DNA from: an uncultured Thermoguttaceae bacterium
Lineage (GTDB): Bacteria > Planctomycetota > Planctomycetia > Pirellulales > Thermoguttaceae
Length of the DNA: 64,000 nt
Direction: 5' to 3'
Assembly: GCA_937951625.1 (NCBI GenBank)
Contig: CALFBP010000060.1
Coordinates: 62,001-126,000, forward strand
Below, piece by piece: positions 3,672 through 28,567 of the stretch (its first letter is position 1; each line of letters opens with the position of its first letter). Both the position numbers and the translations under genes were made by a program. The notes beneath the pieces are model-generated. The model had not been told where the DNA came from and did not search any database. It saw only the letters and a program-made list of their open reading frames with translations.

Positions 3672-3728
3672 ACCCCACCGGGCCACCCAAACCGGCTTAT
3701 CGGCGGCGCCAGCCGATTGTCTAAGGCA

Positions 3729-4028: not shown

Positions 4029-4030
4029 GG

Positions 4031-6103
4031 TTAGATCCGATCCAGGGTGTCGATCCAACGGGCCAATACCGCCACATCCTCGGCGTTCAACTCGCGGGGG
4101 TCCGCGCCCAGGTCCTGGACGATCAACGAATAGTGCCACTTTCGCATTTGGGCAATCGTTTGACGGACCAAGTTTGCTGAGCGCGATCGGGCAGCCACGG
4201 CGAGGTAAAAGTCCACGCGTCGGGCGGGGTTTGGTTCGGGGATAGAGCCTTCCGCAAAAGCGTCCACCGCCACCACCCCGCGAACGAGCTGAGCATAGCG
4301 AAACCCTGCCGCGATCGCAACCGTACCGCCCGACTGGGAGCCGCACACCACGATCCGGTTCGCATCGACCGCATACTGCTCGGCAATCTTGGTCACCAGC
4401 GCAGGGATGAGGCGTGCCTCGCGGGTCTGCCATCGCACTGGCCCGGCTGACCGCGGAATCGCAAGAATCAACCGATCTCGCTCGCAGGATTCCTTCCAGA
4501 GCGTCACCATGGTCTCGGGCTTGACCTCTCCGGGCGGCGGCAGCCAAACAACGACCCCGCACGGCTGGTCGGGATCATACGTCTCCGGCACGAATACCCA
4601 AGCTGGTTCGCCCTGCTCCGCGTAGTCGATGCGGAGGAGGCCGACTTGAGGACGCGCGGCCGGTTGCCTGGTGCTAGGCTCGGAGCCAGGCGGGAGCGGA
4701 GCACTGGGAACAACGTCGGGAAGCGGCCCCAAAGTCAGGGCCAGTTGACGTTTCTCGCCTTTCCGTTCGATTTCCAGCGGAAGCACGTCTCCCGGCTCGT
4801 ACTCCAACAAACGCAAGCGCCATGCTGCCAAATCGCCAAGCGGCTTGCCACCCGCGGAGACGAGGATATCGCCCGGTTGAATGCCCGCTTTGGCTGCCGG
4901 GCCGTCGGGATAGACAAATCGTACCTTCACGCCCGAGGCCGCCGGTTTGTCCGCCTGCCGGGGACCGCGCATCGGCAAAATCCCCATGAAGGGGTGCTCA
5001 TAGGATTCGATCCGCTGCACGAGCTCCAATTCCCGTTCGATCCTTTCGGTTCCTCGCAGCGCGGCGATGCGGATTGGGTCGCCTGCGTAGCGACGGGCGA
5101 TCTCCTGTTTCACCTGCACGGCGGTTTCCACTTTTTTTCCGTCAATCGCCGTGATCCGGTCGCCAGCGCGAAAGCCCGCCCGATGGGCCGGCGAGCGCGG
5201 CCGGACCGCTGGGATCGTCGAGTCGGCCGTGAACAGACTCTCCAAAGGCCAGTGGATACCAGTGAGGCCAGGGTAAAGGTCGCTGCCGCGTTGCAGACGG
5301 GGCAAAAGTTCCAGGATCGTCTCCGCGGGCACGGCGAATCCGATGCCGGAGTCGTACCATTCGACACCCGCAATGGGGTTGGTTTCGGTCGGCGAGAGGG
5401 GGACGAGGACGCCCAACACCCGACCCTGCACGTCCACCAGAGGCCCCCCGTAGTTGTTCGGCGACACGGCGGCATCGGTCTGAATGGCCTTCCCCCAAAT
5501 CCGCTGTGTGGCGCTCAGCACGCCCACGGCCAAATTCGGCTGATCTGCCTCGAAGGCACGCCCGATCGCAATCGTCCATTGGCCCACGCGCATGTCGGCC
5601 AGGGGAACGATTTCGGGCACGGGGAGCGGGCGATCCGCGTCGATTTTCAATAAGACGATCATGCGGTTGTAGTCGGTGGCTATGAGCCTGGCGGCCTTGC
5701 GTGTGCCATCGGCGAGTCGCACGAGGATGGAGGCGGGGCGATGCACGAAGTTGAAAGCGCTGGAGACGATCGTCCCGTCGGCGCCCAGCACGAGTCCCGT
5801 GGTCGGCCCCATGCCAAACAGCCAGTCTCCCACGCGCTCCATGCCGCCTACGGTCTCGATGCGGACCACGCTTGGCGCCACTCGCTGGGCGGCTGCGCGG
5901 AAGGCCTGCTGTTCGCGGACCTCCAGGGCATCTCCCGCGTCCGCTGCGGCACAAGCCACCGAATTCAAGATCGCGACAGAAACAAGAAGAGCCGCGGCCG
6001 CGATGCTCCCGGTCACCGACTCCCACAGTCGCCGCGATTCGTGTTGCTCGACATGCATCCCCACAAAAGCCAGCTTCGAGGCAAACCGCCACACGATTCC
6101 CAC
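4031..6103 (-). CDS. catalytically degenerate HtrA-like/PDZ protein fused to an alpha/beta-hydrolase-like domain
   Basis: This 690-residue protein has an N-terminal hydrophobic signal/anchor (about 33-52), a trypsin-like HtrA fold (about 65-270), two PDZ domains (about 285-365 and 370-460), a Pro-rich linker, and an alpha/beta-hydrolase-like C-terminal domain (about 485-690). All three HtrA catalytic positions appear changed: the His position of TNNHVV is Phe117, the Asp position is Met148, and the Ser of GNSGGP is Tyr218 (SPNNYGGPL). The hydrolase elbow reads GSQSGG (588-593), with Gln where the nucleophile normally sits, so that domain may also be inactive. The start is a GTG at 6103 preceded by GGAAGG/AGG, 6 bases after the upstream stop; an internal ATG at 6058 is an alternative. 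It is probably a periplasmic binding or scaffold protein. Confidence 0.8.
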   Translation of the reverse strand: MGIVWRFASKLAFVGMHVEQHESRRLWESVTGSIAAAALLVSVAILNSVACAAADAGDALEVREQQAFRAAAQRVAPSVVRIETVGGMERVGDWLFGMGPTTGLVLGADGTIVSSAFNFVHRPASILVRLADGTRKAARLIATDYNRMIVLLKIDADRPLPVPEIVPLADMRVGQWTIAIGRAFEADQPNLAVGVLSATQRIWGKAIQTDAAVSPNNYGGPLVDVQGRVLGVLVPLSPTETNPIAGVEWYDSGIGFAVPAETILELLPRLQRGSDLYPGLTGIHWPLESLFTADSTIPAVRPRSPAHRAGFRAGDRITAIDGKKVETAVQVKQEIARRYAGDPIRIAALRGTERIERELELVQRIESYEHPFMGILPMRGPRQADKPAASGVKVRFVYPDGPAAKAGIQPGDILVSAGGKPLGDLAAWRLRLLEYEPGDVLPLEIERKGEKRQLALTLGPLPDVVPSAPLPPGSEPSTRQPAARPQVGLLRIDYAEQGEPAWVFVPETYDPDQPCGVVVWLPPPGEVKPETMVTLWKESCERDRLILAIPRSAGPVRWQTREARLIPALVTKIAEQYAVDANRIVVCGSQSGGTVAIAAGFRYAQLVRGVVAVDAFAEGSIPEPNPARRVDFYLAVAARSRSANLVRQTIAQMRKWHYSLIVQDLGADPRELNAEDVAVLARWIDTLDRI

Positions 6104-6109
6104 GCCGAC

Positions 6110-7162
6110 CTACCTTCCGCCCGGAGGCCGGGCTTCCAAAACCACGGACACGAGCTCTTGGCCCCGCAGCACAGTCACCGTCACGGGGTCGACCGCCGGG
6201 ATCCACTCCAGCTCAGTCTTCAAGGCCTTGCACGACGGCACCAAACGTTCATTGACGAATACGATAAGGTCGTCCGGACGGAGGCCGGCCACGGCCGCGG
6301 CCGACTCGGGGACCGTGGCTTCGAGGAACGGCGGGGTCCGCTCAACGACGTCGGGCACCAGAACCAGTCCGAGCAGCTCGGGCGTCAAGCCCCGCGTGGG
6401 CTTCTTAGAGGACGCTTCCTCACGCCGCAACACGAATTTGCCAGCGCGAATCTGCTCCACGCTGGGCCGCAGCTCGCCGATGGGAATCGCGTAGTTGAGC
6501 CAGGTGTTGTTCAAGGCATTGCGAAGCTCCTTGCCGAGCATGGCCACCAGCTCGCCGCGCCGCGTGACCAGGGCCCCACCCGCCGCCCCTGGGTTGTTGG
6601 TGGCCATATCGAGAATGTAGACGGGACCGCGATAGGGCGATTCAAACGCTCCCCGGCGTGCGTCGAGCCGGGTCTTCAACGAAACCGTGCCCTGTTGAAC
6701 GGTGACTGGTTCGTTGCCCACCGCCACCCCGAAGGCGTTGCTCAGAGCCAACACCCGCTCGCCTGCCTCCACCTCCACCGCCCGCGCAAGGTCGAAGTGC
6801 GGCAAGTCCGCGGCTTCCACCTTCAGGACGGCGACTTCCAGACGCGGATCCGCGCCGAGCAACTTTCCAGCGAGCTTGCGGCCGTCGGCCAAGCGGACGT
6901 CGATGGCGTCCGTGTCGAGCACATAGCTCCAGGCGGTCAGCACGTGGCCCTCGGCCGAGATGAGAAACCCGCTTTGATAATCTTCCATGCCTTGCGGGCC
7001 ACCGACGCCGTAGATTTTGACCATCTTGGGCTGCACCGCGGCGATGGTCTCGGGCAGGGATGGCCCCCGAGCAGTGCCCACGTTGCCCGCCTCCCCCGGG
7101 CTGACGCAAAGTAGCGTCACCAATCCGGCGATTCGCCAAACACGCCTTCGCCAAACGCTCAT
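6110..7162 (-). CDS. catalytically degenerate HtrA-like protein with PDZ domain
   Basis: A 350-residue protein with an N-terminal hydrophobic signal (about 9-22), an HtrA-type trypsin fold (about 35-235) and one C-terminal PDZ domain (about 265-345). The family signatures remain readable but all three catalytic residues are replaced: Ser79 at the His position (LTAWSYV), Glu109 at the Asp position (PRLEVAVLKV) and Ala194 at the nucleophile (NPGAAGGAL). The glycines of the oxyanion loop are kept, so the fold is probably intact while proteolysis is not expected. It sits between an intact HtrA-like gene upstream and a second degenerate one downstream, 6 bases before the latter's start. A regulatory or chaperone role for the active paralogue is inference. 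Confidence 0.8.
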   Translation of the reverse strand: MSVWRRRVWRIAGLVTLLCVSPGEAGNVGTARGPSLPETIAAVQPKMVKIYGVGGPQGMEDYQSGFLISAEGHVLTAWSYVLDTDAIDVRLADGRKLAGKLLGADPRLEVAVLKVEAADLPHFDLARAVEVEAGERVLALSNAFGVAVGNEPVTVQQGTVSLKTRLDARRGAFESPYRGPVYILDMATNNPGAAGGALVTRRGELVAMLGKELRNALNNTWLNYAIPIGELRPSVEQIRAGKFVLRREEASSKKPTRGLTPELLGLVLVPDVVERTPPFLEATVPESAAAVAGLRPDDLIVFVNERLVPSCKALKTELEWIPAVDPVTVTVLRGQELVSVVLEARPPGGR

Positions 7163-7274
7163 CGCACTACCCGTTCTCTTCCTCTCTATCGCAATCCTAT
7201 CGAACTTCGCGGCATTCTTCCATCCATCGTGAGTCCGTCGTCAATGCTCCGTCAATCTTACTTCCGTCGGCAGA

Positions 7275-9164
7275 CTAGGGTTCCATTGACTTGCCGAAGC
7301 CGAATTGGTCGATCGCAAAATTCGCGAAGCGTTCGTCGCCAAACCAAACCTCCATGCGGTGCGGCACTTGTCGTCCCTCGACAGGCCGATAATCGAACAA
7401 TCGGACCTCGCATGGATCGGCATGTTCCTCGGGAAACATCTCCAAGGCGAGGAGGATGCCGGTGGAGGGATCGAAGAGGAACCGACACTCCACGCCGGCG
7501 TGGGTTCCCACCAGCACATCCACCCGCTCGTGCCGCCCCATTAGCGGCATGGCGCCGTAATAGGCCACGTCGCCGAACTGTTCCGGGCCCGCCGTTGCCA
7601 GCCGTCGCCAAAGATAGAGTGAAGCAAAAAGACCGCCGCTTCCGTCCGGGTGAAGGGAACCAGCAAGCTCATCAGGCACCGTCCAAGTCGTTTCGCCAGA
7701 GGGAAGTTTCAATACGATTCGATCGTCGGCTAGCTCGAAGCGGTATCGGCCGCCGGTTTCCAGAGGGCCCGCGATGACCCAAGGGCCCGACGCCGACCCC
7801 AAGTCGCTGCTAGTAGCCCAAGCCTTCAGCACCCGATCCCGCTCCAAACGATTGAAATAATAATTGGCGTACCCCCGACGCTCCTCGAAGTGTTTTTGGA
7901 CAATCTCGGGCATCGGTACTGGCTCGGGCGGGGCGAGCGAGGGCACGTCCTCCGGAGGGAGCGGCGGAAGCTGCTGCTTGCCGCGCTTCGGCAGCTTGTC
8001 GCCTGGCCGCGAGGGCTGCTTCTCGTTGGGCTTGGGGATCGGCGAGGGCATGGACCGGCCCACCGCCGAGATCTTGCTCAACAGCTCCTCTTCCGTATGG
8101 ACTCCAGCGAGACGGACGAGGATGTCGCGGCGCGTTCCATCGCGGCGGAAGCTCAGCGGCGCCCGCCAGCCCTTTGGTAAAGTCCCGAGCACGTTCTTGA
8201 AGGCGTTGGGACTATCAATCGCGCGGCCGGCAAAGCTGACAATCTCGTCGCCATAGCGAAGGCCGCGGCGGTAAGCGTCGGAGGTATCGAGAATGTCGGT
8301 GATGACGACGCGACCTTCCACGTCGGAACCGACGGTTGCCCCCAGCGTGGCATGATCCACGATCCTCCCGCCCTTCAGGAATCCGAGAAAGTTTTTCACC
8401 TGATTGATCGAGATGGCATAGGCGATTCCCACATTGACGCGGCCCCGTTTCTCGAACGAGGCCCGGCCGTTGATGCCGATCAACCGGCCTTGGGCATCGA
8501 ACAGGGGACCGCCCGAGTTGCCGGGATTGATCGACGCATCGGTTTGCAAACAGTCCGCGTATTCCAAGAGGGTTCCCGAGGGGTGTTGGTAGCGGTGAAC
8601 GCCGGAGATGATGCCGTGCGTGAGGGTGGGCTGGAAATCGCTAGCCAAGAGGAAGGGGTTGCCCAGGGCGAAGCAGGCGTCGCCTACTTGCACTTGGTCG
8701 GAGTCGCCCATTTCCGCAGCGGGAAAATCCGAGCGGCCGAAGAGCTTGATCAGCGCCAGATCGCCAACGGGGTCGATGCCCACGATCACCGCGTCGTATA
8801 ACCGACCGTCGGCCATCCCACACTTCATGGCGTTGCCGCACGGTTTTGCCACGTGGAAATTCGTGAGGGCATAGCCGTCGGGTGAAATCACCACCCCCGA
8901 TCCACCGCCCCCGCCGGTCGGGGAAAGGATCGAAAGCACGGTGTCCTTGACCTTGGCCACCACGGCCACCCGCTCCGCCTCGGCTTGGAGCACGGCCGGA
9001 TCGACCGCCGCATTCGACCAGGAAGCCAAGACGAACCATGCGGCCAGGCCCACCACGGGGCCCTGGCGCCACCGCGCGGCCGCGATGTCTCGACCAACCA
9101 AGGCCCGACTATCCGCTCCTGCCGCCTGGCCGGTGGCTTTGGCAACGAAAGCCTCGTCTCTCAT
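7275..9164 (-). CDS. HtrA/DegP-like S1C serine protease with PDZ and extra C-terminal domain
   Basis: A protein of about 629 residues with an N-terminal membrane anchor or signal (about 36-52), a trypsin-like domain with an intact triad (His104 in LTNFHV, Asp135 in VGDLALIKL, Ser217 in NPGNSGGPL), and a PDZ domain at about 280-365. A Pro/Lys-rich linker leads to a C-terminal domain of about 200 residues that I do not recognise. Envelope HtrA proteases degrade or refold damaged proteins. The start at 9164 is chosen because its ATG overlaps the upstream stop as ATGA and has GGCGAG upstream; an ATG at 9185 would overlap further and has no ribosome-binding site. It is the only catalytically intact member of three consecutive HtrA-like genes. 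Confidence 0.85.
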   Translation of the reverse strand: MRDEAFVAKATGQAAGADSRALVGRDIAAARWRQGPVVGLAAWFVLASWSNAAVDPAVLQAEAERVAVVAKVKDTVLSILSPTGGGGGSGVVISPDGYALTNFHVAKPCGNAMKCGMADGRLYDAVIVGIDPVGDLALIKLFGRSDFPAAEMGDSDQVQVGDACFALGNPFLLASDFQPTLTHGIISGVHRYQHPSGTLLEYADCLQTDASINPGNSGGPLFDAQGRLIGINGRASFEKRGRVNVGIAYAISINQVKNFLGFLKGGRIVDHATLGATVGSDVEGRVVITDILDTSDAYRRGLRYGDEIVSFAGRAIDSPNAFKNVLGTLPKGWRAPLSFRRDGTRRDILVRLAGVHTEEELLSKISAVGRSMPSPIPKPNEKQPSRPGDKLPKRGKQQLPPLPPEDVPSLAPPEPVPMPEIVQKHFEERRGYANYYFNRLERDRVLKAWATSSDLGSASGPWVIAGPLETGGRYRFELADDRIVLKLPSGETTWTVPDELAGSLHPDGSGGLFASLYLWRRLATAGPEQFGDVAYYGAMPLMGRHERVDVLVGTHAGVECRFLFDPSTGILLALEMFPEEHADPCEVRLFDYRPVEGRQVPHRMEVWFGDERFANFAIDQFGFGKSMEP

Positions 9165-10345
9165 TTCAGCAATCTCGCCTCGCATAGATTTAGTAGATCG
9201 CCCACGTCGAAATCATCGCCAAAATCGACGAGAACAGCCAGCCGTCGCACGCCCGTCAAATCCACGTCGACCGCTCGAGGAGGGTCCGTTCCTGCCACTG
9301 CCATATCCAGCAAGACTCGCTGGTCACCCCGAATCACCAGCCGCACATGACCCAACGGGCGAGCAGCATCGTCGATCCCCACCACTGCCATGAATCGAGT
9401 AAATCGCTCGGGCAATTGGAACACCATTTCCGTGCGGCTGGGAATACAAAGTCCCTTCGCATAACGCTGACCTTGAATCTGGAGGGGGCCGCCGTGGAGG
9501 TTCTTGTCGAAGCGTGGGGCGAAAAAGGCCCTCCGCGATTCCAGTTCCCGGGCCAGACCAAAATAGGGCGTCCACTCGACGCTATCCGGCTTCAGATCGC
9601 TGAGATAGACCACCGTGTCCTGCCTGATCGTCAACAGGACCAAATCCGCCAACGACCTCCGCATCGCGATCCCTGTAGGGGTGCTCCACTCGATCGCGTC
9701 GCCCTTCACCGTGATCGACCGCACCGACCAGGTGGAACCCGTGCGATCGCTCAGGGTCCCGAGCGAGGCGGGCAATTCGCGGCCCGACGGATGATGAAAC
9801 ACCACTCCAAAGACCCTGCCCCGCCGAACCGGGAGGCGTTCTCCGTCCAACTCGAACTCCACGGTGTCTTCCGTGACACGATGGAGAATCCCCGCGTGGT
9901 AGTCCACCACGTCGCCCTTCTTTATCATCAACACGTCATGCGTCGCCGCCGCGGCCAAGATCTTTTCCCAGGCCACTGCGGGCGAGTCGCCGGGCGGGCT
10001 GAAGCGAACCAGCCGAATCGTCGCGTTGGGGACTTCCAAGGAATCGGCGCGAAGGAGCTTGACCCGGGTCGTTCCCCCCTCCATCGTCACGCTCTCCAAC
10101 GCCAAACGGGAATCATCGACCAGTTCAACGGAGATTGGGGGCGCGACCTTGTTGTCGAACGGAGGGCCGAAGCGGATCTCCGCAAGACGCTTCAGGTCCC
10201 AAGTTTTTTGGCCCTCATTTGTCTGGACTGCAATCTGCGAGGGGGTCAGTCGCGTTAAAACCCCACTGAGGCGTTCGCCGTTGACGGTTTGCACGGCGAC
10301 CTCGGGTTGAACCGCCGCCAAGAGACACGCGAGCAACATCCCCAT
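9161..10345 (-). CDS. secreted protein with C-terminal NPCBM-type domain
   Basis: A protein of about 394 residues with a short hydrophobic signal (MLLACLLAAV) and a beta-rich N-terminal region with recurrent G-x-L/I turns. The C-terminal domain (about 255-394) includes YAKGLCIPSRTEMVFQLP and RFMAVVGIDD, which match the NPCBM carbohydrate-binding-module-like family. That domain usually sits beside glycoside hydrolases, but here it is alone, so it may bind cell-surface glycans. The ATG at 10345 is preferred; a TTG at 10351 and an ATG at 10339 are alternatives. Its TGA overlaps the ATG of the downstream HtrA protease, which argues for coupled synthesis. Confidence 0.65.
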   Translation of the reverse strand: MGMLLACLLAAVQPEVAVQTVNGERLSGVLTRLTPSQIAVQTNEGQKTWDLKRLAEIRFGPPFDNKVAPPISVELVDDSRLALESVTMEGGTTRVKLLRADSLEVPNATIRLVRFSPPGDSPAVAWEKILAAAATHDVLMIKKGDVVDYHAGILHRVTEDTVEFELDGERLPVRRGRVFGVVFHHPSGRELPASLGTLSDRTGSTWSVRSITVKGDAIEWSTPTGIAMRRSLADLVLLTIRQDTVVYLSDLKPDSVEWTPYFGLARELESRRAFFAPRFDKNLHGGPLQIQGQRYAKGLCIPSRTEMVFQLPERFTRFMAVVGIDDAARPLGHVRLVIRGDQRVLLDMAVAGTDPPRAVDVDLTGVRRLAVLVDFGDDFDVGDLLNLCEARLLK

Positions 10346-10392
10346 AAACAATGTACCCCCTCGTGCATTGTACGCACATTGCCGACTTCGGA

Positions 10393-11478
10393 TTACCTTG
10401 TTGCCTCGCTGGCCAGCCTGCGGAAGTACTGTTCAATGATATCACGATAATGAGCGGGGAAGTCGCGACCAATCTGTTGGAGGGCCTCCTCACGTTGTTT
10501 CGGAGGCAGATCCCCCCACCCGCTTTGGTGCCCTATGTCGCGTTTTGTGACATTTCCCGGTCCTTTCCCCCCCATAGGGACACTATCTTGGGCGGGCCGG
10601 GTTGGTTGGACATTGCCTGCTCCCATGGACGCTTGTTGTTGCTGCTGGGCCGATTCCAACTCCTCAATCAGTTTGTCCAGGGACTTGACGACGCCGTCTT
10701 GGATTTCGCGGACCTTGGGTCCGGCCCGGCCCAAGTCCAACCGGCGTTGAATGTCCTCCATGCGCCGCGCGATATGATCTAACGACTCTTCTTTAAGATC
10801 CTTGAGATCGGCCTCCATAAGCCGGGCAATGGTGACATAACGGCGCGGGCACGAATCCGGCGCGTCCAACAAACGCGCCAAGGCGTCCGCCGCCACCTCC
10901 CGATTGAGAAGACGATGATGCACCACGGCCTGATAAAACAACAGCGTGGCGGGATCCACGACCTCCTCGGCCTGGATTCCGTCGAGTTGTTCCGCCGCTT
11001 CATCGAATAAACGTTGTTGGGCCAGCCACCGACCATACCAAACACGGAAGTTCTTGGCGATCCAGTCCGGCGTCTGCGGATCGACCAGCCAGCTCTGCGG
11101 AGGCAGCGTCCTTGGGGCCGCGGGCTGGGAACATAAGGCAACGAGTTTCTTCGCATTTTCGTCGATCAGCGCAACGGTGCGGATCAGACGTTCCAACACC
11201 TCGGTGGCGGACGGCGACTCACCCTTGACCTCCCAAATTGCCTCGGCCTTGGCCCGATCGGCTGGCGCGGGTTTTCGCTCAGTTAACCAGGCAAAGACCC
11301 GGTCGCGGACTTGCTCCACGCTGGGCGGGTGCCAGGTTCCCATCTCCAAACGAGGCTCCACCGCAAGACAAAGGCTTGCCCCAACCAGCAGCAGGAGAAG
11401 CCCAACGCCCTCGCCGCTTCCTCCACGATTGCAACAGAACAGTCCGCTCCGGCTGAGTTCCGCTATTGTCTGCCTCAT
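10393..11478 (-). CDS. secreted alpha-helical (TPR-like) protein of unknown function
   Basis: A 361-residue protein with a hydrophobic segment at about 25-42 (signal or anchor). Helical repeats follow at about 110-235 (WYGRWLAQQRLFDEAAEQL, ATLLFYQAVVHHRLLNRE) and resemble TPRs. Next comes a short Gln-rich coiled region (ESAQQQQQ) and a C-terminal motif GWGDLPPKQREEALQQIG with a following PAHYRDIIEQYFRRLA helix. I know this tail as a recurrent feature of uncharacterised planctomycete proteins found beside MoxR/VWA clusters. The start overlaps the preceding stop as ATGA, so it is translated coupled to the coiled-coil protein. A binding or scaffolding role in the envelope is inferred. Confidence 0.6.
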   Translation of the reverse strand: MRQTIAELSRSGLFCCNRGGSGEGVGLLLLLVGASLCLAVEPRLEMGTWHPPSVEQVRDRVFAWLTERKPAPADRAKAEAIWEVKGESPSATEVLERLIRTVALIDENAKKLVALCSQPAAPRTLPPQSWLVDPQTPDWIAKNFRVWYGRWLAQQRLFDEAAEQLDGIQAEEVVDPATLLFYQAVVHHRLLNREVAADALARLLDAPDSCPRRYVTIARLMEADLKDLKEESLDHIARRMEDIQRRLDLGRAGPKVREIQDGVVKSLDKLIEELESAQQQQQASMGAGNVQPTRPAQDSVPMGGKGPGNVTKRDIGHQSGWGDLPPKQREEALQQIGRDFPAHYRDIIEQYFRRLASEATR

Positions 11479-13250
11479 TGATTCTTCCCCAAACTCAAAT
11501 CGCGGGTAATGCGGAAAATCTGTTCCTGCCGCTCGGCGAGGCGTTTCAATGCCTCGATCAGGTCAGGCTGCTCGGCCTGTTCGCCCTGGATCAGCTTCGA
11601 ATACCGATCGGTCCGCAGGTTGACACGGACTTGAAGCGAACGAATCATGCGGAGTTCCGCCAGCAGGTCGATCAGGGGCGGGTCGGTCATCATGCCTTGG
11701 CCGAAAGGCGAGGCTTGCTGTTTCCGTTTTTCCTGGTCCTTGATTGCCTTTTTCAAGGCCTGGAGCATTTCGTCCAAGGCCGCGATCACGTCCTCTTCGA
11801 GGCCCTGGGTGATCTTGTCGACCTTGGCCGCGGACAGCCGATCGGCGATTTGCTGGATGTCCTGGCGGACCTGACCGACGGCTTCCGCCAACGCCATGGC
11901 TGAGCCGTCTTCGCGCAAAAGCGTCAAGGCCTTTTCCGCCTCCAAGTCGATTTCCGACTCGCGGCTGGCCAAACGGCTTGCTTGGATTTCATGTTCGCGA
12001 GTGCGTTCCTGCTGGGGGATCTTATCCAACCGTAGGGTGCCGTCTAGGACCTCCCGCTGCATCTGAAGCATTTTGCTGAAACGGGCCTCGAGCGACACAA
12101 GCACCCGTTGGATTTCTTCTTCGCGGAGTTGACGGAGAATCTGTTCCAAGGCACTGCGGGCCTGCTCTAATTCGCGGATGGCTTCCTCCTGTTGTTCCAA
12201 GGCCCCCTGGCGCTGGGCTTCCTGAAGCTTCTTCTCGGCCTCGCGCATCCGCGATTCGGCGGCCTCGAGCCGCTTGCGTGCGGGATGGTCTTGGGCCACC
12301 GGGGGAGGCTCGTTTGCCGGCGGTTGACCATCGGGCGAAGGCCCCCCTTGATCCTTGGCTGGGCCTTGGCTGGGCTTTGCTCCTGGCGGCGAGGAAGGCG
12401 ATTGCCCTTTTGGTGGAGCTGCTCCCTGGTCTTTCGCTTGGTCCTGTCCATTCGTGGGCTTAGGAGCGGGCGATTGCGCGGAGGGTTTGCCTTGGGACTC
12501 AGTTTTTGGCCCCGGGGGACCTGACTTCGGTTGACCGCCTTGCGATGGTTTTCCCTGCGCCCGGTCTTCCCCTGCGTCCTGCCCGTTGGGCGGCTTGGGA
12601 CCCTGATCTTCCTCGTTTTTCTGAATGTCTTTGGCGAGGCCTCCGGCCTTGTCGGCAATTCGGGCCTGCTCATCGGCGAGCGCCTTCGGCTCCCCGCCTC
12701 CGGCCGTGCGGGCTTGGACTTCTTTCTGCTGGTTGATAAGCGCCGCCAGCCGCTTGAGATAATCGCGGACGCGGGCCTTCTCCGATTGGAGGCGTTTGGC
12801 CCGGTTCTCGCTCAAAAGCAGATCCAGCAAGGCCATCAGATCTTTCTCGACCATTTGTTGGTTTTCCAGCGCGCGGCCCAGCTCGTCCTTGCGGAGCAGA
12901 TCGGCCAAGGTCTCCATTTGCACGCTGATCAGCCGCTCCTTACTCTGCGCCACGGCCTTGCGCAGAAGGGCCGCTCGGCGCGGGTCCGTGGCTGCGCTGA
13001 GTTCGGCCATCCGCAGCAGCATTTCCTCAAAACGTTTGAAGCGATCGCTCAAACGCTGCTGTTCCATCGCCAACTGGTCCGGGGCCGTGGCAGGCGGCTT
13101 CGGATCGTCCTGGGCCCATGCCCACGAAGGTCCCGCGAATACGACGGCCACGAGCAGCCGCGGCAGCCACGCGTATAATGTGCGTGCAGCCGTTCTTTGG
13201 ACCGCTGGGTGTACATGGCCGTTGGGGGGCCGAGCGAACTGGCGTTCCAT
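11475..13250 (-). CDS. secreted coiled-coil protein with Gln/Pro/Lys/Gly-rich linker
   Basis: A 591-residue protein with a signal-like hydrophobic stretch at about 28-46 ending in AWA. Long charged helices likely to form coiled coils cover about 60-185 and 330-570. Between them, about residues 215-325 form a low-complexity linker built from PNGQD, KPSQGG, PPKGQ and related Lys/Gln/Pro/Gly motifs. There is no enzymatic motif. GGAG lies 8 bases before the ATG, and the start is only 5 bases after the upstream stop, so the gene is tightly linked to the DUF4175-like gene. The downstream start overlaps its own stop. It probably acts as an elongated periplasmic structural protein; the function is unknown. 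Confidence 0.65.
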   Translation of the reverse strand: MERQFARPPNGHVHPAVQRTAARTLYAWLPRLLVAVVFAGPSWAWAQDDPKPPATAPDQLAMEQQRLSDRFKRFEEMLLRMAELSAATDPRRAALLRKAVAQSKERLISVQMETLADLLRKDELGRALENQQMVEKDLMALLDLLLSENRAKRLQSEKARVRDYLKRLAALINQQKEVQARTAGGGEPKALADEQARIADKAGGLAKDIQKNEEDQGPKPPNGQDAGEDRAQGKPSQGGQPKSGPPGPKTESQGKPSAQSPAPKPTNGQDQAKDQGAAPPKGQSPSSPPGAKPSQGPAKDQGGPSPDGQPPANEPPPVAQDHPARKRLEAAESRMREAEKKLQEAQRQGALEQQEEAIRELEQARSALEQILRQLREEEIQRVLVSLEARFSKMLQMQREVLDGTLRLDKIPQQERTREHEIQASRLASRESEIDLEAEKALTLLREDGSAMALAEAVGQVRQDIQQIADRLSAAKVDKITQGLEEDVIAALDEMLQALKKAIKDQEKRKQQASPFGQGMMTDPPLIDLLAELRMIRSLQVRVNLRTDRYSKLIQGEQAEQPDLIEALKRLAERQEQIFRITRDLSLGKNQ

Positions 13251-13255
13251 AACAG

Positions 13256-15586
13256 TTACTCCATCAGCTCGCGGAGTTTATCGCGGCGTCGCTGCTTGAT
13301 CTGGTCCTGGAGGGCCCGCTCCGACTGGAGAATCGACCTGAGCATCTCCACCGCTTCGTTGAAGTCCTCTAGCTCGATCATGCGGTCGAGCACTTGGCGC
13401 ATGACCGCAAGGATGGCATCGGTCTGCGCGATCGAGGCGGCCAAGGCCTGCTTGCCCGCCTGCGGCTCGGCCATCACCAGTTGAAGCCGATCGAGACGGC
13501 GGTCCCACTCCGGGAACATCTCGTCGGCCACCCGCCGCAGCGGCTTGGAAATGCCGTCTTCCAAACGGAGCTTGAGTTCTTCGGTGTCGATGCGGTTGTT
13601 GATCAATTCTTCGCGGATTTGGGCGAAGGCATCGGCGATTCCCGCCGTCTCGTAAGCGCTTTTCCGCCCGTTTTGCTGCGCCCATTGCACCTGGAGGAGT
13701 CTTTGGGTGGCCAAACGTTCGGGCGACAGCTCAGGCGCGGCGTTGGGCAATTCGCCCGGCTCGACCGCAGAGGCCCGCTCTGGCTTGGCTGTAGGCGACT
13801 GGGGTGGTTTGGCAGCCGCGGCCTCCTTCGCTGGCTCGGCGAACACCGGGGCCGCACCGGCCGAGAACGGCCTTCGTTCCCGCGCCGCCCCGGCCGACGT
13901 AAGCTCGAGCCGGGCCAGGGAGTCGCGGGCGTCTTCCACGTCTTTGATCAGGCTTTCGAATCGCTGGCGGAGCACCAATTCCCGCGATTGAAGCATCGTG
14001 CGGAGCTGTTCGGGCGTGACGACTTCCAGCAGCCAGCGGTCGCTGGCGCCGACATTCGGGGCGGGCCCTAGATCGAAGCGGTCCTCGGCCTTCACGCACA
14101 AGGCCAGTTTCTGGCCCGGCTTCAGGCCCAGGGGACGCACGTCAAACGCCGCGGCCACCCTTTGTTGGGTCGCGTTCCCCGGCGGCGAAGCGATTGGCTG
14201 AGTTTTCGCCTCACCTTCGTCGATCGCGTAATCGAACCAGATTCGGGCGAGGCCGTAATCATCCTCCGCGCGGCCCGACACGGGAATCGTCGCCTGCGGG
14301 GTTACCGCCGATCCGATCCCACGAAGTTGCACGGACACCTCGGGCCGGCGGTCTTCCAGGGCCGAAAGCACAAGCCGCACCGGCTCGCGGCTCTTGATCC
14401 CGTCGGTGTCGAAAAGGGTGAGCAGCAGGGCCGAGTCGCGTGCGAGCGGCGGGATGGGGAACGCGAATCGCCGGGGGTCTTCCGCCGAAGGATCGACGCG
14501 CTTGGCCGGCTGGCTAGAATCCTCCGACACCGTCTCCACCGAGACGCGCACCAGTGGTTTGTTGCTCCGGGCGTGTACAACGATCGCCGTGCCGACGGGC
14601 ACTTGCATCGGACCAGCCACCGGCAGCGACCGAGGCGCTCGATCCATGTATTTGGGAAACTCGCACTGCAACACCATTTCCACGATGGTGGGGTTATCGA
14701 CCACGTCGATGTGCAAACCGCGGATCGCCGCGTCGCCCCCTACGACATCGAACTCGATCGGTGCGAGTACGCCCCGAAAGGTATAGGTGTATTCTTGATA
14801 CTCATCTTGGCCGGGCAAGGCAGTGCCCACCCGAGTCATGGCCTTGCGAAGCCCGCCCGAGCCGCGGTAGCGGACCTCCACCACGTCGGGAACCAAGGGC
14901 ATGTCGAGGCGGGCCTTGACCACCAGTTCCAGGTCGGCCCCACGGGCCACCTTGGCCACCCCGCCGGGAAATCCTTCGACTTCCAATGCGCAGTTGCGGG
15001 GCCAAAGCTCATCCGACAACAGGACCACGCGACGGAGCCAAACCGCGGTCACTCCCGGGTAGATCGCCGCAAAAGCGAACAGGGTAAACAAAAGCACGGC
15101 GGTCGCCGCCAGGCTTTTCCGCAGCGGTCGATAGTCGAAGACCTCCGCAAGCCGCAGCGAGGCCAGCGACTGCTCCGCCCGACGGCATGTCACGGCCAGC
15201 AACTCAGGATTGCACTCCTCCGCCGCCTTGCCGCATGCAGCCAGGTCGACGGCCGTCAACAAACTGTCGGCAAAGTGCGGGAAGCGGCGCTCGAGCACCA
15301 TGGCCAGATTGCTATCGGAAATCCGCACGGCCAGCCGTCGGCCGATCAGGTTCCAAAAGGCGGCTACCAGAGCGACCGCCGCCGCTAGAAGCGCCACGGT
15401 GCGGACGGCCCGATCGGGCTCGAAAAACCAATCGGCGATCAAGCTGATCCACGCCGCTCCGCCGAGACACGCCCCCAGCACGCCAAGCCCGCGAAGCCAT
15501 ACATACCCGCGCAGCTTCCTCCGCAGCGCGTCGAGCGTCGCGCGGATGCCAGGCGAAATCTCAATGCGGGGAGGATTGCCGGTCAT
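13256..15586 (-). CDS. DUF4175-like membrane protein
   Basis: A 776-residue protein from the ATG at 15586. Two N-terminal membrane segments (about 30-50 and 60-80) are followed by the motif LAMVLERRFPHFADSLLTAV, typical of the DUF4175-like family. A third membrane segment lies at about 165-185, then a long beta-rich extracytoplasmic region, and a charged helical C-terminus (about 545-776). DUF4175-like genes accompany MoxR, DUF58 and VWA genes in several bacteria, as they do here. The longer in-frame start at 15652 adds only an unlikely charged extension. Its biochemical role is not known; the arrangement suggests a membrane platform for the coiled-coil proteins encoded next. Confidence 0.7.
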   Translation of the reverse strand: MTGNPPRIEISPGIRATLDALRRKLRGYVWLRGLGVLGACLGGAAWISLIADWFFEPDRAVRTVALLAAAVALVAAFWNLIGRRLAVRISDSNLAMVLERRFPHFADSLLTAVDLAACGKAAEECNPELLAVTCRRAEQSLASLRLAEVFDYRPLRKSLAATAVLLFTLFAFAAIYPGVTAVWLRRVVLLSDELWPRNCALEVEGFPGGVAKVARGADLELVVKARLDMPLVPDVVEVRYRGSGGLRKAMTRVGTALPGQDEYQEYTYTFRGVLAPIEFDVVGGDAAIRGLHIDVVDNPTIVEMVLQCEFPKYMDRAPRSLPVAGPMQVPVGTAIVVHARSNKPLVRVSVETVSEDSSQPAKRVDPSAEDPRRFAFPIPPLARDSALLLTLFDTDGIKSREPVRLVLSALEDRRPEVSVQLRGIGSAVTPQATIPVSGRAEDDYGLARIWFDYAIDEGEAKTQPIASPPGNATQQRVAAAFDVRPLGLKPGQKLALCVKAEDRFDLGPAPNVGASDRWLLEVVTPEQLRTMLQSRELVLRQRFESLIKDVEDARDSLARLELTSAGAARERRPFSAGAAPVFAEPAKEAAAAKPPQSPTAKPERASAVEPGELPNAAPELSPERLATQRLLQVQWAQQNGRKSAYETAGIADAFAQIREELINNRIDTEELKLRLEDGISKPLRRVADEMFPEWDRRLDRLQLVMAEPQAGKQALAASIAQTDAILAVMRQVLDRMIELEDFNEAVEMLRSILQSERALQDQIKQRRRDKLRELME

Positions 15587-15593
15587 GGAACAC

Positions 15594-15776
15594 TCAGCTT
15601 TCCGAGGGCGTGCCGTTTTTCGAGGGATGGATAACCACGTCGGGGAGCGCAAGGCATGTCGGCCCGGTCATGACCAGGCCCCCCGCCCGAGCGATTCCTT
15701 CCTCCCGCGGCGCGAGAGCAACGGCAGGCCCCGAGGCCGGCCTCGCCCCCTTTTTTTCCGTGCCGATTTCGGGCAT
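15594..15776 (-). CDS. possible 60-aa small protein between two operon genes
   Basis: A short reading frame fits the 205-base gap between the VWA protein and the DUF4175-like gene. Its ATG at 15776 is 15 bases after the upstream stop, AGGTGGGG lies about 8 bases before it, and its TGA is 7 bases before the next ATG. The predicted peptide (MPEIGTEKKGARPASG...) has no recognised motif or membrane segment. The placement is suggestive, but in GC-rich DNA a 60-codon frame can arise by chance. It needs conservation evidence before being trusted. Confidence 0.25.
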   Translation of the reverse strand: MPEIGTEKKGARPASGPAVALAPREEGIARAGGLVMTGPTCLALPDVVIHPSKNGTPSES

Positions 15777-15791
15777 GGGGTGTCCCCACCT

Positions 15792-18257
15792 TCAAGCCAA
15801 TTTCAACAACCGCCGGATCAACCATTCGCCGCATAGGAGACCACACAAGACAAACATCATCCCGCTTCGCCAAGGCCGCTCCGACAAGGGGTTCGGGCCG
15901 CTGGCGACGACGCTGATCCGCGTGCGGTCTTTCAAGTGCGCGACGAGGGGATCGTTCGCTTCCGGTCCCCAGGCCGCGTCCAACGAAGGATAAAACTTCC
16001 CCCCTGTTCCCACCGCGATGCGACTCAATAAGGCGTCGTTGCGTTGAGGGTTTTCCCGCTCCAGGTCCGGCAGACGGACGTGAATTCGCCGCACGAGGCG
16101 ATCGCGATCGCTTTCCGGCACCGGGAGTTCCAATCGATACACGCCCTCCTGAAGCACCGTCCAATGGCCGGTATACATTCCTTCTCGGCTGGCGTCGGGC
16201 CGCAACAACATGTTTTGGACGCCGCCGTTCGGTTGGATGACATCCACCATCACGCGGGGCGCTTGCAGTGGTTTGAGTTGGGCGTCGGTCAGTTGGGCGC
16301 GAATCTCGACGGTGGCCCCAAGCACGCAGCGATCCTTGTCGACCATCAGCATGCCGCGCTGGGATTGGCGGAGCAAACGCCCCTGGGCCACATGACGCAC
16401 AAGCCGCGTGTAGAATTGATCGAAATAGCTTTCGTCCACCATGCGCAGCCGCCACATTTCGCCGCTGCCCAAATAAAACACCCGTCCGGCCCCGTAAAAT
16501 TGGCCCACAAAATACGGTAGCGGAGGGCCGCCCTGTGTGGCCAGGGAATCGGAAAGTCGGGCGAAAACGGTAGCCCCGGCCTTCGGGCCGCGGATGGGCT
16601 GCACGCTGTAGACGCCTGGAAATGAGGCCCAGGCTTGCTGGTTGGCCGAGTCGGTGTCGGCAATCCAAAGGAATTCGGCCTCGCGTCCCTCGCGGGTGAA
16701 GTCCAAGGGTAGCGGGTCCCTTGAAAAGTAGGTTTCGCTTTCTGCCGAGGTGGCTTGGCGTGGGAATTCCACAGGATAGAGGGCGCGGATTTTTTCCATA
16801 GCAGGATTCTGCTGCCAACCGCGGACGGTCTGGCCGCTGTGGATCGGCCCTGCTACCAAGATCAGCCCACCGCCCTGCTCGCCGACCCAGGCTTCCAGCA
16901 ACTCGGTTTGGGCAGGCGTCAGGCTTTGCCAAGGCGGGTCGATGGCAATCACGCAGTCGTAGGTGAACATTTCCGATCGCGTGTCGGGAAACTGGTCCAA
17001 GATGCTGGCCGACTCTTGGGAAATGCCGGGCTTGCCGGTAGCGAGCAACACGTCGAGCACAGTCGATTTGTCGCGGTATAGAAGTGTCTTGAGAAACTGG
17101 TATTCCCGACTCGGCCCACCGGCAAACAACAACACGCGGTTCTTGCGGTCAACCACCTCGACTTCGACCTCGCTTTGGTGGTCGGCCGGGACGCGGGCGC
17201 CGCCGGGCGGCGTCAATCGCATCAGGACTTGGCAACGGCCGGTTCCCGACGGCGTCACTTGGAACTGCACCGGAGTCGCCGAGCCGTCGCCGCCCAGGAT
17301 CACTTGCCGTGTGTCGATAAGCTGCTCCGTCTTTTTTTCCAGGTCGCGCACAAGAAGTTCCACGGAAACGCTCTGGCCAGCCATCCCCTGGGCTTGAATC
17401 AGTCCCTTGACGGTGTACGGATCGCCCGGCTGGACCCGGTCTGGGGCCTCCAGTTCCTGTATCCGCACGCTCGCCGGCCGTTCGGCCGAGCCGACGCCCA
17501 CGGTAAAGATGGGGACTCGGGCCTCGCGGGCCAATTCCACGGCGGCGTCTGGCGAGGGGCCGGCGTTCTGGCCACCATCGCTGACCACGACAATGCCCGT
17601 TAGCGGCGATCCCCGCTCCTCCGAGAGGACCTGTTGCAACGACTGCCCAAGCCGGGTCTCCTTGCCCAAGGGCTTGAGCACCGCCTCCCAGTCGATGGCA
17701 GCCTCTTCCAGCGGACCCGCGTCGCCGCTCGGAGGATCGGTGGTTTGGAGTTCCCCCGGATCCATGGCCCCCGGCCCTTTTCGAGCGAAGGCCGCCACGC
17801 GACCCACAGTCTCGTCAAACCGCAAAACCACCACCTCGTGGACCCGGCGGAGCCGTTCGAGGAAATCGGTGGCCACCAAGGAGGCCGCCACCTGTTGCGC
17901 ACGCGTCACCGGGCTCCCCTTGCCGTTCGCCTCGGCCTGGAGGCCCATGCTCAAGCTGGTATCGACCAGAAGCACCACGCGCGAAGGATGGACCACTTCG
18001 TGCTCGCTCCGCCAACGAGGCTCCAGATACAACACGAGCAATCCGAACAAAACGGCGGTTCGCAGGCCGGTGAGCGTCCACCGCCAAAGCAGACCGAGTT
18101 CTTTAGCGTCGCGGCGGTACATCCAGCGAATGAAGCTGGCCAGCGCCAGAAAGGCGACGACCGGCACGATCCAATCGGCGTTCGACTGGATGCGGCCCCA
18201 CTCGAAGCGGATTCTTTCCGACTGTTCGGCCAGAGCTAACAACAGCCGCCAGTTCAC
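15792..18257 (-). CDS. membrane-anchored von Willebrand A domain protein
   Basis: An 821-residue protein with membrane segments at about 28-45 and 60-78, then a VWA domain from about 93 with the metal-binding motif DTSLS (D99, S101, S103) and the strand IVVVSDGGQN. The rest is beta-rich with a class I glutamine-amidotransferase-like fold feel (about 370-560), and a terminal hydrophobic helix near 790-815 (MMFVLCGLLCGEWLI). The start is a GTG at 18257 whose GTGA overlaps the stop of the upstream BatA-like gene, which indicates coupled translation. VWA proteins next to MoxR ATPases are thought to form metal-dependent complexes for maturation or envelope assembly; the specific client here is unknown. 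Confidence 0.8.
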   Translation of the reverse strand: MNWRLLLALAEQSERIRFEWGRIQSNADWIVPVVAFLALASFIRWMYRRDAKELGLLWRWTLTGLRTAVLFGLLVLYLEPRWRSEHEVVHPSRVVLLVDTSLSMGLQAEANGKGSPVTRAQQVAASLVATDFLERLRRVHEVVVLRFDETVGRVAAFARKGPGAMDPGELQTTDPPSGDAGPLEEAAIDWEAVLKPLGKETRLGQSLQQVLSEERGSPLTGIVVVSDGGQNAGPSPDAAVELAREARVPIFTVGVGSAERPASVRIQELEAPDRVQPGDPYTVKGLIQAQGMAGQSVSVELLVRDLEKKTEQLIDTRQVILGGDGSATPVQFQVTPSGTGRCQVLMRLTPPGGARVPADHQSEVEVEVVDRKNRVLLFAGGPSREYQFLKTLLYRDKSTVLDVLLATGKPGISQESASILDQFPDTRSEMFTYDCVIAIDPPWQSLTPAQTELLEAWVGEQGGGLILVAGPIHSGQTVRGWQQNPAMEKIRALYPVEFPRQATSAESETYFSRDPLPLDFTREGREAEFLWIADTDSANQQAWASFPGVYSVQPIRGPKAGATVFARLSDSLATQGGPPLPYFVGQFYGAGRVFYLGSGEMWRLRMVDESYFDQFYTRLVRHVAQGRLLRQSQRGMLMVDKDRCVLGATVEIRAQLTDAQLKPLQAPRVMVDVIQPNGGVQNMLLRPDASREGMYTGHWTVLQEGVYRLELPVPESDRDRLVRRIHVRLPDLERENPQRNDALLSRIAVGTGGKFYPSLDAAWGPEANDPLVAHLKDRTRISVVASGPNPLSERPWRSGMMFVLCGLLCGEWLIRRLLKLA

Positions 18258-20628: not shown

Positions 20629-21531
20629 CTAACTCCTTGTCTGGGTCGCCAAGCGATGGTTGAGGAACGTCGCCAGCGCCGCGCCCAATGACTGGCTGGT
20701 TCGGAGCATCGTATAGTCCACGTGCTGGCGGCTACATGCCCGGCGCACCTCCTCGAGATAGGCCTGGAGTGCGGTCAGGTAGCCCTCGCGCAACGCGCGG
20801 GGATTGCATTTCAAGTACAAAGGCACTTCCAATCCTTCGAACCGCGTGGGCCCGCTGAAGGGAAAATCCAGCTCGTCGTCATCGAGCACGTGGAACACCA
20901 GCACATCGTGCCCGCGGCTGCGCAACAGCCGAAGCCCTCGGGAAAAGCCCTCGCGATCGACCAATAAGTCGGAGACAATCGCCACCATGCCGCGGCGGGG
21001 ATAGGCCTCGGCCGCCTTGCGGAAGATCGGGGTCAGGTCCGTCTTGTGCCTGGGATCGCTGGCTTCCAGGGCCTGAACGATGGAATCGAGGTGGTTCCGC
21101 TTGGTCCGCTGGGGGACGATTTTCCGCGGCCCCTCGTCGAAGGTGAGGCAGCCTACCGCGTCCTGCTGGCGGAGGACGAGATACGCCAAGCTCACCGCAA
21201 CCGTGGCGGCATACTCGAATTTGGTCATGGCCCCCTTGCCGTACCGCATGCTGGCCGAGGCGTCGACCAAGAGCGTCAATCGCAAGTTCGTGTCCTCCTC
21301 GAACTGCTTGACGTAATAGCGGTCCTGTTTGGCCCAGACCTTCCAATCGACGTAACGAAGGTCGTCGCCCGGCGTGTACGGCCGGTGCTGGCGGAACTCG
21401 ACCGTCTGGCCGAAGTGCGGGCTGCGGTGCCGCCCCGACAAAAACCCCTCGACGACGTGCCGTGCGCGAAGATCGAGCCGGGCAATCCGCTTGAGGACGT
21501 CAGGACGCAAAAATCGTTTGGAATCGTTCAT
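20629..21531 (-). CDS. DUF58 domain protein (VWA-like)
   Basis: A 300-residue protein of the DUF58 family. The diagnostic segment [18 protein letters not shown] lies at about 51-68 and the MIDAS-like DASAS motif at 90-94, inside a VWA-like fold. DUF58 proteins are the standard partners of MoxR ATPases, and the MoxR gene is immediately upstream, overlapping by 32 bases. The ATG at 21531 gives the usual N-terminus ([19 protein letters not shown]); a GTG at 21552 would add seven unconvincing residues. No membrane segment is visible, so it is probably cytoplasmic or peripheral. Confidence 0.88.
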
Positions 21532-22558
21532 CGCGCGACAGCTCGTCCTCACGAGTCGGGGTGGCGTCCAGGATTTGTTGAATCACGTCGTCGGTGGTCA
21601 CGCCCTCGCTCTCGGCCGTAAAGCTGAGCACCAGGCGGTGACGCAGCACCGGCTTGGCCAGCTCGCGGATGTCGTCGACCGAGACGTGAGAACGACCGTG
21701 CCAAAGGCATCGGGCCTTGGCCCCGAGGATCAAGCATTGCACCGCCCGGGGGCCAGCCCCCCAACTCAATTGCTCCTCCACGAAGTCCGGGACACCAGGC
21801 TCGCGCACGCGAGTCTGCCGCACCAAGGCCAGGGCATAGCGGATCACGTGCGGGGCCACCGGCACGCTTCGTACAAGCTGCTGCACCTCGAGGATGTCTT
21901 CGGCGCTGAGCACCGGTTCCACCCGGTCATCCCACACCGCCGTGGTCCGCTCCGCCACTTGATATTCTTCCTCGAACGTCGGATAGCGGACGAAGACCTT
22001 GAACATGAAGCGGTCTTGCTGGGCTTCGGGCAGGGGGTAGGTGCCTTCCTGCTCGATGGGGTTTTGCGTGGCCAACACGAAGAACGGGTCGGCCAGTTTG
22101 TGCCGCACCCGGCCCACGGTCACCTGACGCTCTTGCATCGACTCCAACAGCGCCGCCTGGGTCTTCGGCGGCGTCCGGTTGATCTCGTCGGCCAGCACCA
22201 CGTTGGCGAACAGCGGGCCGGGCAGAAACCGGTATTCACGGCTGCCCGTGGAACGGTTCTCCTCAATGATTTCGGTGCCGGTAATGTCGGCGGGCATCAG
22301 GTCCGGAGTGAACTGGATGCGGCTGAAAGAGAGATTCAGCGCCCGGCTCAGCGTGCTGATCATGAGCGTCTTGGCCAGTCCCGGCACGCCTTCCAACAGG
22401 CAGTGCCCGCGACTCAACAACGAAATCAACAGTTGCTCGATCACTTGCTGCTGGCCAACGATCACCCGCGACAACTGGCCGAGGATCTTCTCCCGCGCAG
22501 CGGCCAGCTTCTCGATGGCCGCGGCGCCCTGGCCGCCCAGCGAATCGTACTCTGTCAT
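21500..22558 (-). CDS. MoxR-family AAA+ ATPase
   Basis: A 352-residue AAA+ ATPase with Walker A GVPGLAKT (57-64), Walker [10 protein letters not shown] (about 120-128) and the MoxR-typical sensor segment [22 protein letters not shown]. MoxR ATPases are chaperones that insert cofactors or assemble complexes together with VWA-domain partners, which are encoded directly downstream (DUF58 and two VWA membrane proteins). Length is normal for the family. The gene lies 104 bases after the terpene-cyclase-fold gene and overlaps the DUF58 start. It is cytoplasmic, and is probably the energy-providing component of the whole cluster. Confidence 0.93.
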
Positions 22559-28483: not shown

Positions 28484-28538
28484 GCCTCGACTCCCAGTTC
28501 CAAACGCCTCGACCTGACGTAAATCCTTATATGAAAAA

Positions 28539-28567
28539 ATATTAGAAGATTTGCGGAGGAATGGCAA
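28539..28567 (-). promoter_or_regulatory. sigma70-type promoter of the 25-kb operon
   Basis: Read on the minus strand, TTGCCA (28567-28562) and TAATAT (28544-28539) are separated by exactly 17 bases. This gives a start of transcription near 28532 and a leader of about 50 bases before the ATG at 28483. The block is AT-rich compared with its surroundings. It is assigned by consensus match only. Confidence 0.5.

Follow-up and report, generated by a model that had tools for sequence, protein, structure and literature searches.

A recurrent planctomycete gene trio encoding one HtrA protease and two HtrA-like proteins without a catalytic triad

Here we describe three tandem HtrA-family genes, htr1, htr2 and htr3, from an uncultured Thermoguttaceae bacterium (Planctomycetota; GenBank assembly GCA_937951625.1). 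They lie in a 64,000-nucleotide stretch of contig CALFBP010000060.1 (positions 62,001 to 126,000), referred to as the window and numbered from its first base. The three open reading frames (ORFs) share the minus strand and are the last three genes of a MoxR/VWA gene run, which occupies about 28.6 to 4.0 kb of this strand and whose other members are listed further below. The intergenic gaps are 112 bp between htr1 and htr2 and 6 bp between htr2 and htr3.

7275..9185 (alternative start 9164), minus strand: htr1, active HtrA-type protease (ORF, Pfam, structure models)
7278..7922, minus strand: C-terminal domain of htr1, LolA/LolB/RseB-like fold (predicted model)
6110..7162, minus strand: htr2, HtrA-like pseudoprotease, Trypsin_2 and one PDZ domain, triad places Ser79-Glu109-Ala194
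4031..6103, minus strand: htr3, HtrA-like pseudoprotease, Trypsin_2, two PDZ domains and a C-terminal domain, triad places Phe117-Met148-Tyr218

All three proteins match the Pfam Trypsin_2 family over nearly the whole model (htr1 115.6, htr2 77.5 and htr3 65.3 bits; cut-off 27.6 bits) and carry PDZ domains, the one in htr2 barely passing (23.5 against a Pfam cut-off of 23.2 bits). This is the HtrA/Do (peptidase S1C) architecture, Trypsin_2 followed by PDZ, and the initial annotation of the window had correctly recognised three consecutive HtrA-like genes here. The His-Asp-Ser triad is present in htr1 (His111/Asp142/Ser224, numbered from the start at 9185) and absent from htr2 and htr3, where the residue numbers given by the initial annotation are exact. 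That annotation gave htr1 as 7275-9164; 9164 is the alternative start and would give an ATGA overlap with the stop of the upstream gene; the start at 9185 makes the protein longer. Judged by sequence, htr2 and htr3 are HtrA homologues and not HtrA peptidases. All three proteins score below the curated cut-off of the NCBIfam Do family TIGR02037 (htr1 215.1, htr2 112.4 and htr3 170.8 against 416.2 bits). The host genome (4.59 Mb) has 15 Trypsin_2 matches, the trio included. All 11 alignable domains among the others keep His-Asp-Ser; the twelfth, a weak partial match on contig C87, is not alignable.

A shifted alignment, named in the initial annotation as a possible source of error, was considered and rejected. 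MAFFT and the residue numbering agree, and HMMER alignments to solved HtrA structures give the same register for htr2 and, in htr3, at the Asp and Ser places. At the His place of htr3, MAFFT and the TSxF/TNxH pattern of the relatives point to Phe117, whereas the HMMER pairwise alignment to Legionella DegQ, with one extra residue before the motif, pairs Asn118 with the His. The relatives with the TSxF pattern favour Phe117, and neither residue is His. The dead domains have conserved loops of their own, SPxNYGGPL and YDSGIGFA in htr3 and NNPGxxGG and NTWLNYA in htr2; the NPGxxGG loop is retained in the htr2 of the window.

Orthologues of htr2 were sought in 60 genomes (the host and its relatives) and relatives of htr3 in named genomes (12 loci), and the surrounding regions were read. 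Sampling is within the phylum Planctomycetota, the data are rich in metagenome-assembled genomes (MAGs), and ORFs run from stop to stop. The resulting set, called type A, comprises 121 loci. A duplicate (L045, of L057) and three loci of a second type (L191-L193, type B) are left out, near-identical genomes are retained (e.g. L039/L100, L044/L076, L051/L095), and one genome (G002) contributes two contigs, L070 and L083. The same triplet recurs in other Planctomycetes: in 97 of the 121 loci htr1, htr2 and htr3 follow one another directly, counted among profile-recognised genes (in L163 MoxR and DUF58 genes stand between npcbm, the usual upstream neighbour, and htr1). The 24 non-consecutive loci comprise 11 in which htr3 has neither htr1 nor htr2 beside it, 10 that end at a contig end and 3 others. 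In L051, L078 and L080, exceptions away from a contig end, htr3 is on another contig of the same genome.

The triad follows the same division throughout type A. The triad is His-Asp-Ser in 104 of 106 htr1 rows, the other two being truncated; the His is uncertain in three rows (L174, L182, L183), where it aligns without a clear motif around it. No htr2 (0 of 111 rows) and no htr3 (0 of 113) has the intact triad. In htr2 the His place is Ser in 88 rows, the Asp place Glu in 47 and Asp in 25, and the Ser place Ala in 63. In htr3 these places are Phe in 94, Met in 46 and Tyr in 110 rows. Among the most distant loci (36 rows), which come largely from genomes of other classes and include some MAGs of unstated class and L081, the htr3 Tyr is kept in 34 cases and the Phe in 29, and the Tyr column is the 22nd most conserved of 250. 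The loss is kept in orthologues and the htr3 nucleophile is replaced by the same residue, which argues for more than chance and bears out the earlier proposal that the losses are selected and not random. Sequencing error is not credible over more than 100 loci; a single TAG was seen inside one htr2 match (L063).

That htr2 and htr3 are functionless, decaying duplicates is hardly credible. The triads are lost and the residue at the Asp place is highly variable, as decay might leave them, but the frames are open phylum-wide, other non-catalytic columns are invariant, and the genes are lost together (see below). The conservation of the dead members over distant loci speaks strongly against decay, and pseudogene formation was rejected on this ground.

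In L039-L103 the median domain identity to the window is 72.5% for htr1, 61.1% for htr2 and 61.6% for htr3. For eight operon neighbours, the medians of the best high-scoring segment pair are 35-49% for six and 65% for duf58 and MoxR (the latter from n=2 loci). In a phylum-wide tree of 132 rows htr1, htr2 and htr3 each form one clade (support 97, 99 and 99); this and the tree below are quick trees with long branches flagged. One genome of the same order (G044) has two separate type A trios, L065 and the far more divergent L081, which carries its own vwa2-tm4175-cc-npcbm genes.

The three genes also tend to be present or absent together. Type A orthologues were called at gaps in the score distribution, for htr3 at E<=5e-61 (next 2e-47) and for htr2 at E<=5.1e-37 (next 8.5e-33, a narrow gap). 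In a phylum sample of 392 genomes htr3 is found in 81 and htr2 in 80: both in 80, htr3 without htr2 in one (G210, whose htr3 lies at one end of a 5.45 kb contig), htr2 without htr3 in none. All eight tested genomes without htr2 and htr3 are also without an htr1 orthologue (best E 5.5e-45), and in two htr3 carriers, G023 and G059, the htr1 orthologue scores at E 1e-118 or better. Seven of the eight trio-less genomes come from the family of the window; six have no match to the operon gene tm4175, and G024 has a weak one (5.6e-10). Where htr3 stands apart, htr2 is elsewhere in the genome in 8 of 8 tested cases. Nine genomes have htr2 without adjacent htr3 in at least one locus, and in eight of them htr3 is elsewhere, G012 being the exception.

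A profile built from three divergent htr3 relatives finds a second trio, type B, in genomes of other classes, with the gene order dead2-dead3-live. It is complete in 40 of the 50 loci read; these were chosen as the best matches to a trio-derived profile, so that the proportion should not be read as a frequency among genomes. Among incomplete loci, L194 begins at a contig end, as does L206, which has no live member downstream, and L209 is cut by the flank, its longer fetch (L233) showing three trypsin-like genes. The live member reads His-Asp-Ser in 48 of 49 rows (one is cut; L261-L263 are counted), dead2 in 0 of 40 (Thr-Glu-Asp in 19), and dead3 in 0 of 47, with mostly Phe or Tyr at the His place, Asp kept in 47 of 47 and Ser kept in few. 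Type A htr3 and type B dead3 occur together in five genomes (G100, G120, G153, G197, G258), and the type B trio is complete only in G153 and G197. In a tree of 123 rows the live members of both types join with support 98, to the exclusion of seven further HtrA paralogues from the host genome; dead3 of both types joins with 90, dead2 with 65, and all dead members stand against the rest with 96. This topology fits one ancestral trio, with dead2 weakly resolved.

Some type B loci have features of their own. In one related group (L244-L247) dead2 has Glu-Leu-His and dead3 Cys or Thr, Asp and Leu, a further distinct loss pattern. In L251 (2460-5711) dead2 and live share one frame with dead3 between them in another, which may be a frameshift, an assembly error or an odd overlap. 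MoxR or DUF58 relatives adjoin the trio in L243, L259 and L260, so the MoxR link may extend to the second trio type. Among conserved neighbours of 30 type B loci, besides HtrA genes and antisense frames, there is one same-strand family (5 loci).

The replacements bear on two further explanations. One is that the dead members have acquired a different chemistry with new residues, since the replacements are conserved within lineages (Ser-Glu-Ala, Thr-Glu-Asp, Phe-x-Tyr). We regard this as very improbable: the common replacements appear to give no obvious nucleophile-base pair, and the NCBIfam scan gives no hint of another activity in the trypsin-like domains. The other is that htr2 and htr3 act as dominant-negative or decoy inhibitors, which keep htr1 off until a signal removes them. 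In MoxR-vWA conflict systems, trypsin domains that are inactive have been proposed, in the available part of the source (PMC7159879), to be dominant-negative regulators or to bind peptides, and the pocket could be plugged by the Tyr that is conserved at the Ser place. However, no inhibitory segment is identified and the type B replacements are quite different (Thr-Glu-Asp in dead2; Phe or Tyr with the Asp kept in dead3), and we consider inhibition a poor, though not negligible, candidate.

Gene fusions connect the members in two ways. htr1 and htr2 form a single ORF in 12 type A loci (L048, L049, L063, L079, L080, L164, L165, L167, L169, L170, L175, L189), and dead2 and dead3 are fused in 12 type B loci (L213, L216, L218-L222, L249, L250, L256-L258). 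The htr1-htr2 fusions would fit physical association. Alternatively, htr2 and htr3 could be independent non-catalytic scaffolds or peptide- or metal-binding chaperones, which serve the same pathway as separate homo-oligomers. MamO is a precedent, as it has lost catalysis and is described as a metal-binding scaffold in the available text (PMC4794232); each dead domain has conserved loops of its own, and the genes lie apart in 8 tested genomes. Nevertheless, the two kinds of fusion and the near-perfect co-occurrence and co-loss are easier to explain by stoichiometric association, and we find separate scaffolds rather unlikely, while giving them real weight.

The accessory domains may indicate what the proteins sense. 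htr1 has a signal-like N-terminus, Trypsin_2 (residues 95-238), PDZ (287-358), a Pro-rich linker and a C-terminal domain (about 422-636). In the predicted model the protease and PDZ part aligns with HtrA structures in VIA-align at Z 28.7 for 2z9i (root-mean-square deviation (rmsd) 4.6, 277 aligned) and Z 28.6 for 3otp (rmsd 3.4, 283 aligned). HtrA chains fill the fold list of the whole model; the C-terminus was therefore modelled by itself, giving an AlphaFold2 (AF2) mean predicted local distance difference test (pLDDT) of 88.9 and a predicted template modelling score (pTM) of 0.86. Foldseek ranks 1-5 are all LolA-superfamily chains (best E 2.9e-5). VIA-align gives Z 13.0 for 3bk5 (rmsd 3.9, 178 aligned) and 11.6 for 3buu; the top structural rows are mostly Lol proteins, one (4z48) being a DUF1329 protein, and RseB and MucB are matched at Z of about 6. 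The predicted C-terminal domain of htr1 is of the LolA-type fold, which suggests that lipoproteins or lipids may be involved. The domain is not recognisable in every orthologue: L046, L047 and L050 align poorly there (alignment A5). In htr3 the NCBIfam scan finds an alpha/beta-hydrolase-like domain at about residues 490-690 (window 4031-4633), which is present in 59 of 115 htr3 ORFs. Its nucleophile Ser, in the motif GSQSG, is present in the window and in 10 of 60 rows in all, window included, so that htr3 looks doubly degenerate in most members that bear the domain. Compared with the initial annotation, whose observation is correct, the locus thus holds more than was said: the operon context, the LolA-like and hydrolase domains, the second trio and the fusions were absent from it.

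We suggest that the products of the three genes form a single proteolytic unit of the envelope, an obligate hetero-oligomer of HtrA type with htr1 as its sole catalytic subunit. From the data at hand we think this probable, with modest confidence. That the three work as a unit finds indirect support in their co-occurrence and co-loss and in the natural fusions; a trio that is lost together and fused in two ways would most simply be a mixed oligomer. More specifically, and more tentatively, we propose as a possible form of the complex an obligate 1:1:1 heterotrimer, ancient in Planctomycetes, with one cutter and two differently dead licensing sensors, whose gene block was duplicated or rearranged as a whole into two gene orders, one of them under MoxR-VWA control.

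In HtrA trimers such as DegS and DegP the sensor loop (L3) of a neighbour remodels the catalytic loops of the next protomer. In the proposed complex htr2 and htr3 would be dedicated same-fold pseudoprotease subunits, which fill the other protomer positions of the trimer. They would bind substrate or signal via their PDZ domains and their dead, structured pockets, and would then switch htr1 on in trans. The LolA/RseB-like domain of htr1 and the mostly dead hydrolase domain of htr3 might add sensing of a lipid, lipoprotein or peptide. The MoxR-VWA proteins of the operon may assemble or remodel the complex or its clients; their link with the trio rests on gene order.

Several observations and arguments stand against such a complex. 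Fusion is a common fate of adjacent genes, operon co-inheritance could reflect shared regulation instead of a complex, and by analogy with MamO, which binds metal, htr2 and htr3 could each act independently. The exact htr2 replacement drifts (Ala in 63 of 111 rows), and dead2 of the two types groups weakly (65). Eleven of the 121 loci have htr3 apart from htr1 and htr2, so fixed linkage is not essential. Two genomes outside the 392-genome sample, both with fragmented assemblies, have partial trios: G012 has htr2 at a contig start with htr3 not detected (550 contigs), and G023 has htr1 and htr3 with htr2 not found by the window protein (79% complete, 1,420 contigs). G384 is without the trio, yet has MoxR and tm4175 relatives on one contig; the trio can thus be missing while part of the operon persists. 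In G028 the best MoxR match is on a different contig from the trio. Among type B loci, a PDZ-only protein occupies the expected dead2 place in L215 (39-809) and L217 (1-1359), dead2 is not detected in L252 and L253, and L261-L263 hold a single active HtrA.

E. coli has DegS and RseB as two distinct proteins, and its HtrA assemblies are homo-oligomers. htr1 is similar to DegP/DegQ in its protease and PDZ fold (VIA-align Z 28), and its C-terminus shares the LolA superfamily fold with RseB (Z of about 6). ClpP/ClpR is a ring protease that mixes active and inactive paralogous subunits and thus a precedent for such mixing, with an unrelated fold, a cytosolic location and dependence on ATP. HtrA allostery is hard to dissect because the well-studied enzymes are homo-oligomeric. 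If the proposed complex exists, it would be an HtrA with sensing and catalysis divided among paralogous subunits of one ring, and the natural split of catalytic and non-catalytic roles into separate genes would allow each role to be mutated alone. The trio is also a case of bacterial pseudoproteases maintained across the depth of a phylum, and it offers a handle on the poorly understood MoxR-VWA operons and envelope quality control of planctomycetes.

The closest precedents are MamE/MamO and plant Deg7. In MamE/MamO of magnetotactic bacteria, an HtrA protease and a pseudoprotease relative are both required in one pathway, and the pseudoproteases are kept by selection. According to the available part of that source, MamO, which stands beside the protease MamE, has lost catalysis and has a metal-binding protease domain, its TauE domain influences the regulation of MamE, and independent origins have been reported in three taxa (PMC4794232). 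Unlike the trio, this system has one dead partner, and MamO keeps His and Asp, has Thr for Ser and carries TauE (PMC4794232). The window proteins stay far below the NCBIfam cut-offs for MamE and MamO (800 bits each; best 131.5 and 53.3). The Deg7 proteins of plants and algae likewise combine an active and an inactive HtrA domain, and the inactive protease domain of AtDeg7 is said, in the part of the article available, to take part in trimerisation (PMC3473262). They are however eukaryotic and place these domains with four PDZ on one chain (PMC3473262), whereas the window has separate genes and two dead domains; no window protein has the Deg7 architecture, and htr1-htr2 fusions occur in 12 other loci. 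The "ternary" MoxR-vWA conflict systems also combine MoxR and vWA genes with trypsin domains, but are defined by VMAP, iSTAND, FtsH or beta-propeller partners, and the available text does not contain the word "HtrA" (PMC7159879). The trio instead consists of HtrA proteins with PDZ domains and signal-like N-termini, encoded in a gene order that recurs. The function of Bat-type MoxR/VWA operons is unsettled, and a Leptospira biflexa mutant lacking every bat gene showed no phenotype in growth or under oxidative stress, as far as the accessible part of the study tells (PMC3557215). The initial annotation knew of no named system of this composition. This holds for the trio itself, as no trio of one live and two dead HtrA proteins is described among the matches listed from the open-licence literature, but not for the pairing of an active with an inactive HtrA, which is already known from MamE/MamO and plant Deg7.

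The other genes of the run are as follows; labels in quotation marks are those used in this work.

9161..10351, minus strand: NPCBM-domain protein (Pfam), directly upstream of htr1
10393..11478, minus strand: "tpr" operon member, no Pfam match, our own label
11475..13250, minus strand: "cc" operon member, charged and coiled-coil-like, no Pfam match, our own label
13256..15652, minus strand: "tm4175", large membrane protein, no Pfam match, presumably similar to DUF4175
15792..18257, minus strand: vwa2, VWA-domain protein (Pfam scan)
18254..20479, minus strand: "vwa1" membrane protein, which we take to be BatA-like
20629..21552, minus strand: "DUF58" protein, a presumed label
21500..22558, minus strand: "MoxR" ATPase, which from its sequence we take to be a MoxR-type AAA+ ATPase

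The Pfam scan covered the eight window proteins from htr3 up to vwa2 and gave trypsin, PDZ, NPCBM and VWA families and weak matches. A scan of 3600-10500 found no sigma-70-like promoters, and terminator-like sites there are in no excess over shuffles, which speaks neither for nor against particular borders of the transcription unit. In 87 of the 121 type A loci npcbm immediately precedes htr1, and 80 have tpr-npcbm-htr1. Many loci with enough fetched DNA show the order duf58-vwa1-vwa2-tm4175-cc-tpr-npcbm-htr1-htr2-htr3; within the length fetched, 4 of the 121 show MoxR, 20 show duf58 and 59 show vwa2. Between MoxR and the head of the run lies a 370-aa protein (22663-23775), which presumably resembles the prenyltransferase/squalene-cyclase repeat fold. 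The run is headed by a 1635-aa protein (23747-28654), whose repeats we take to resemble TPR and PQQ/beta-propeller repeats. Further along the window, the protein at 30624-31640 has what we take to be a type IV pilin-like N-terminus, of a kind presumably abundant in planctomycetes.

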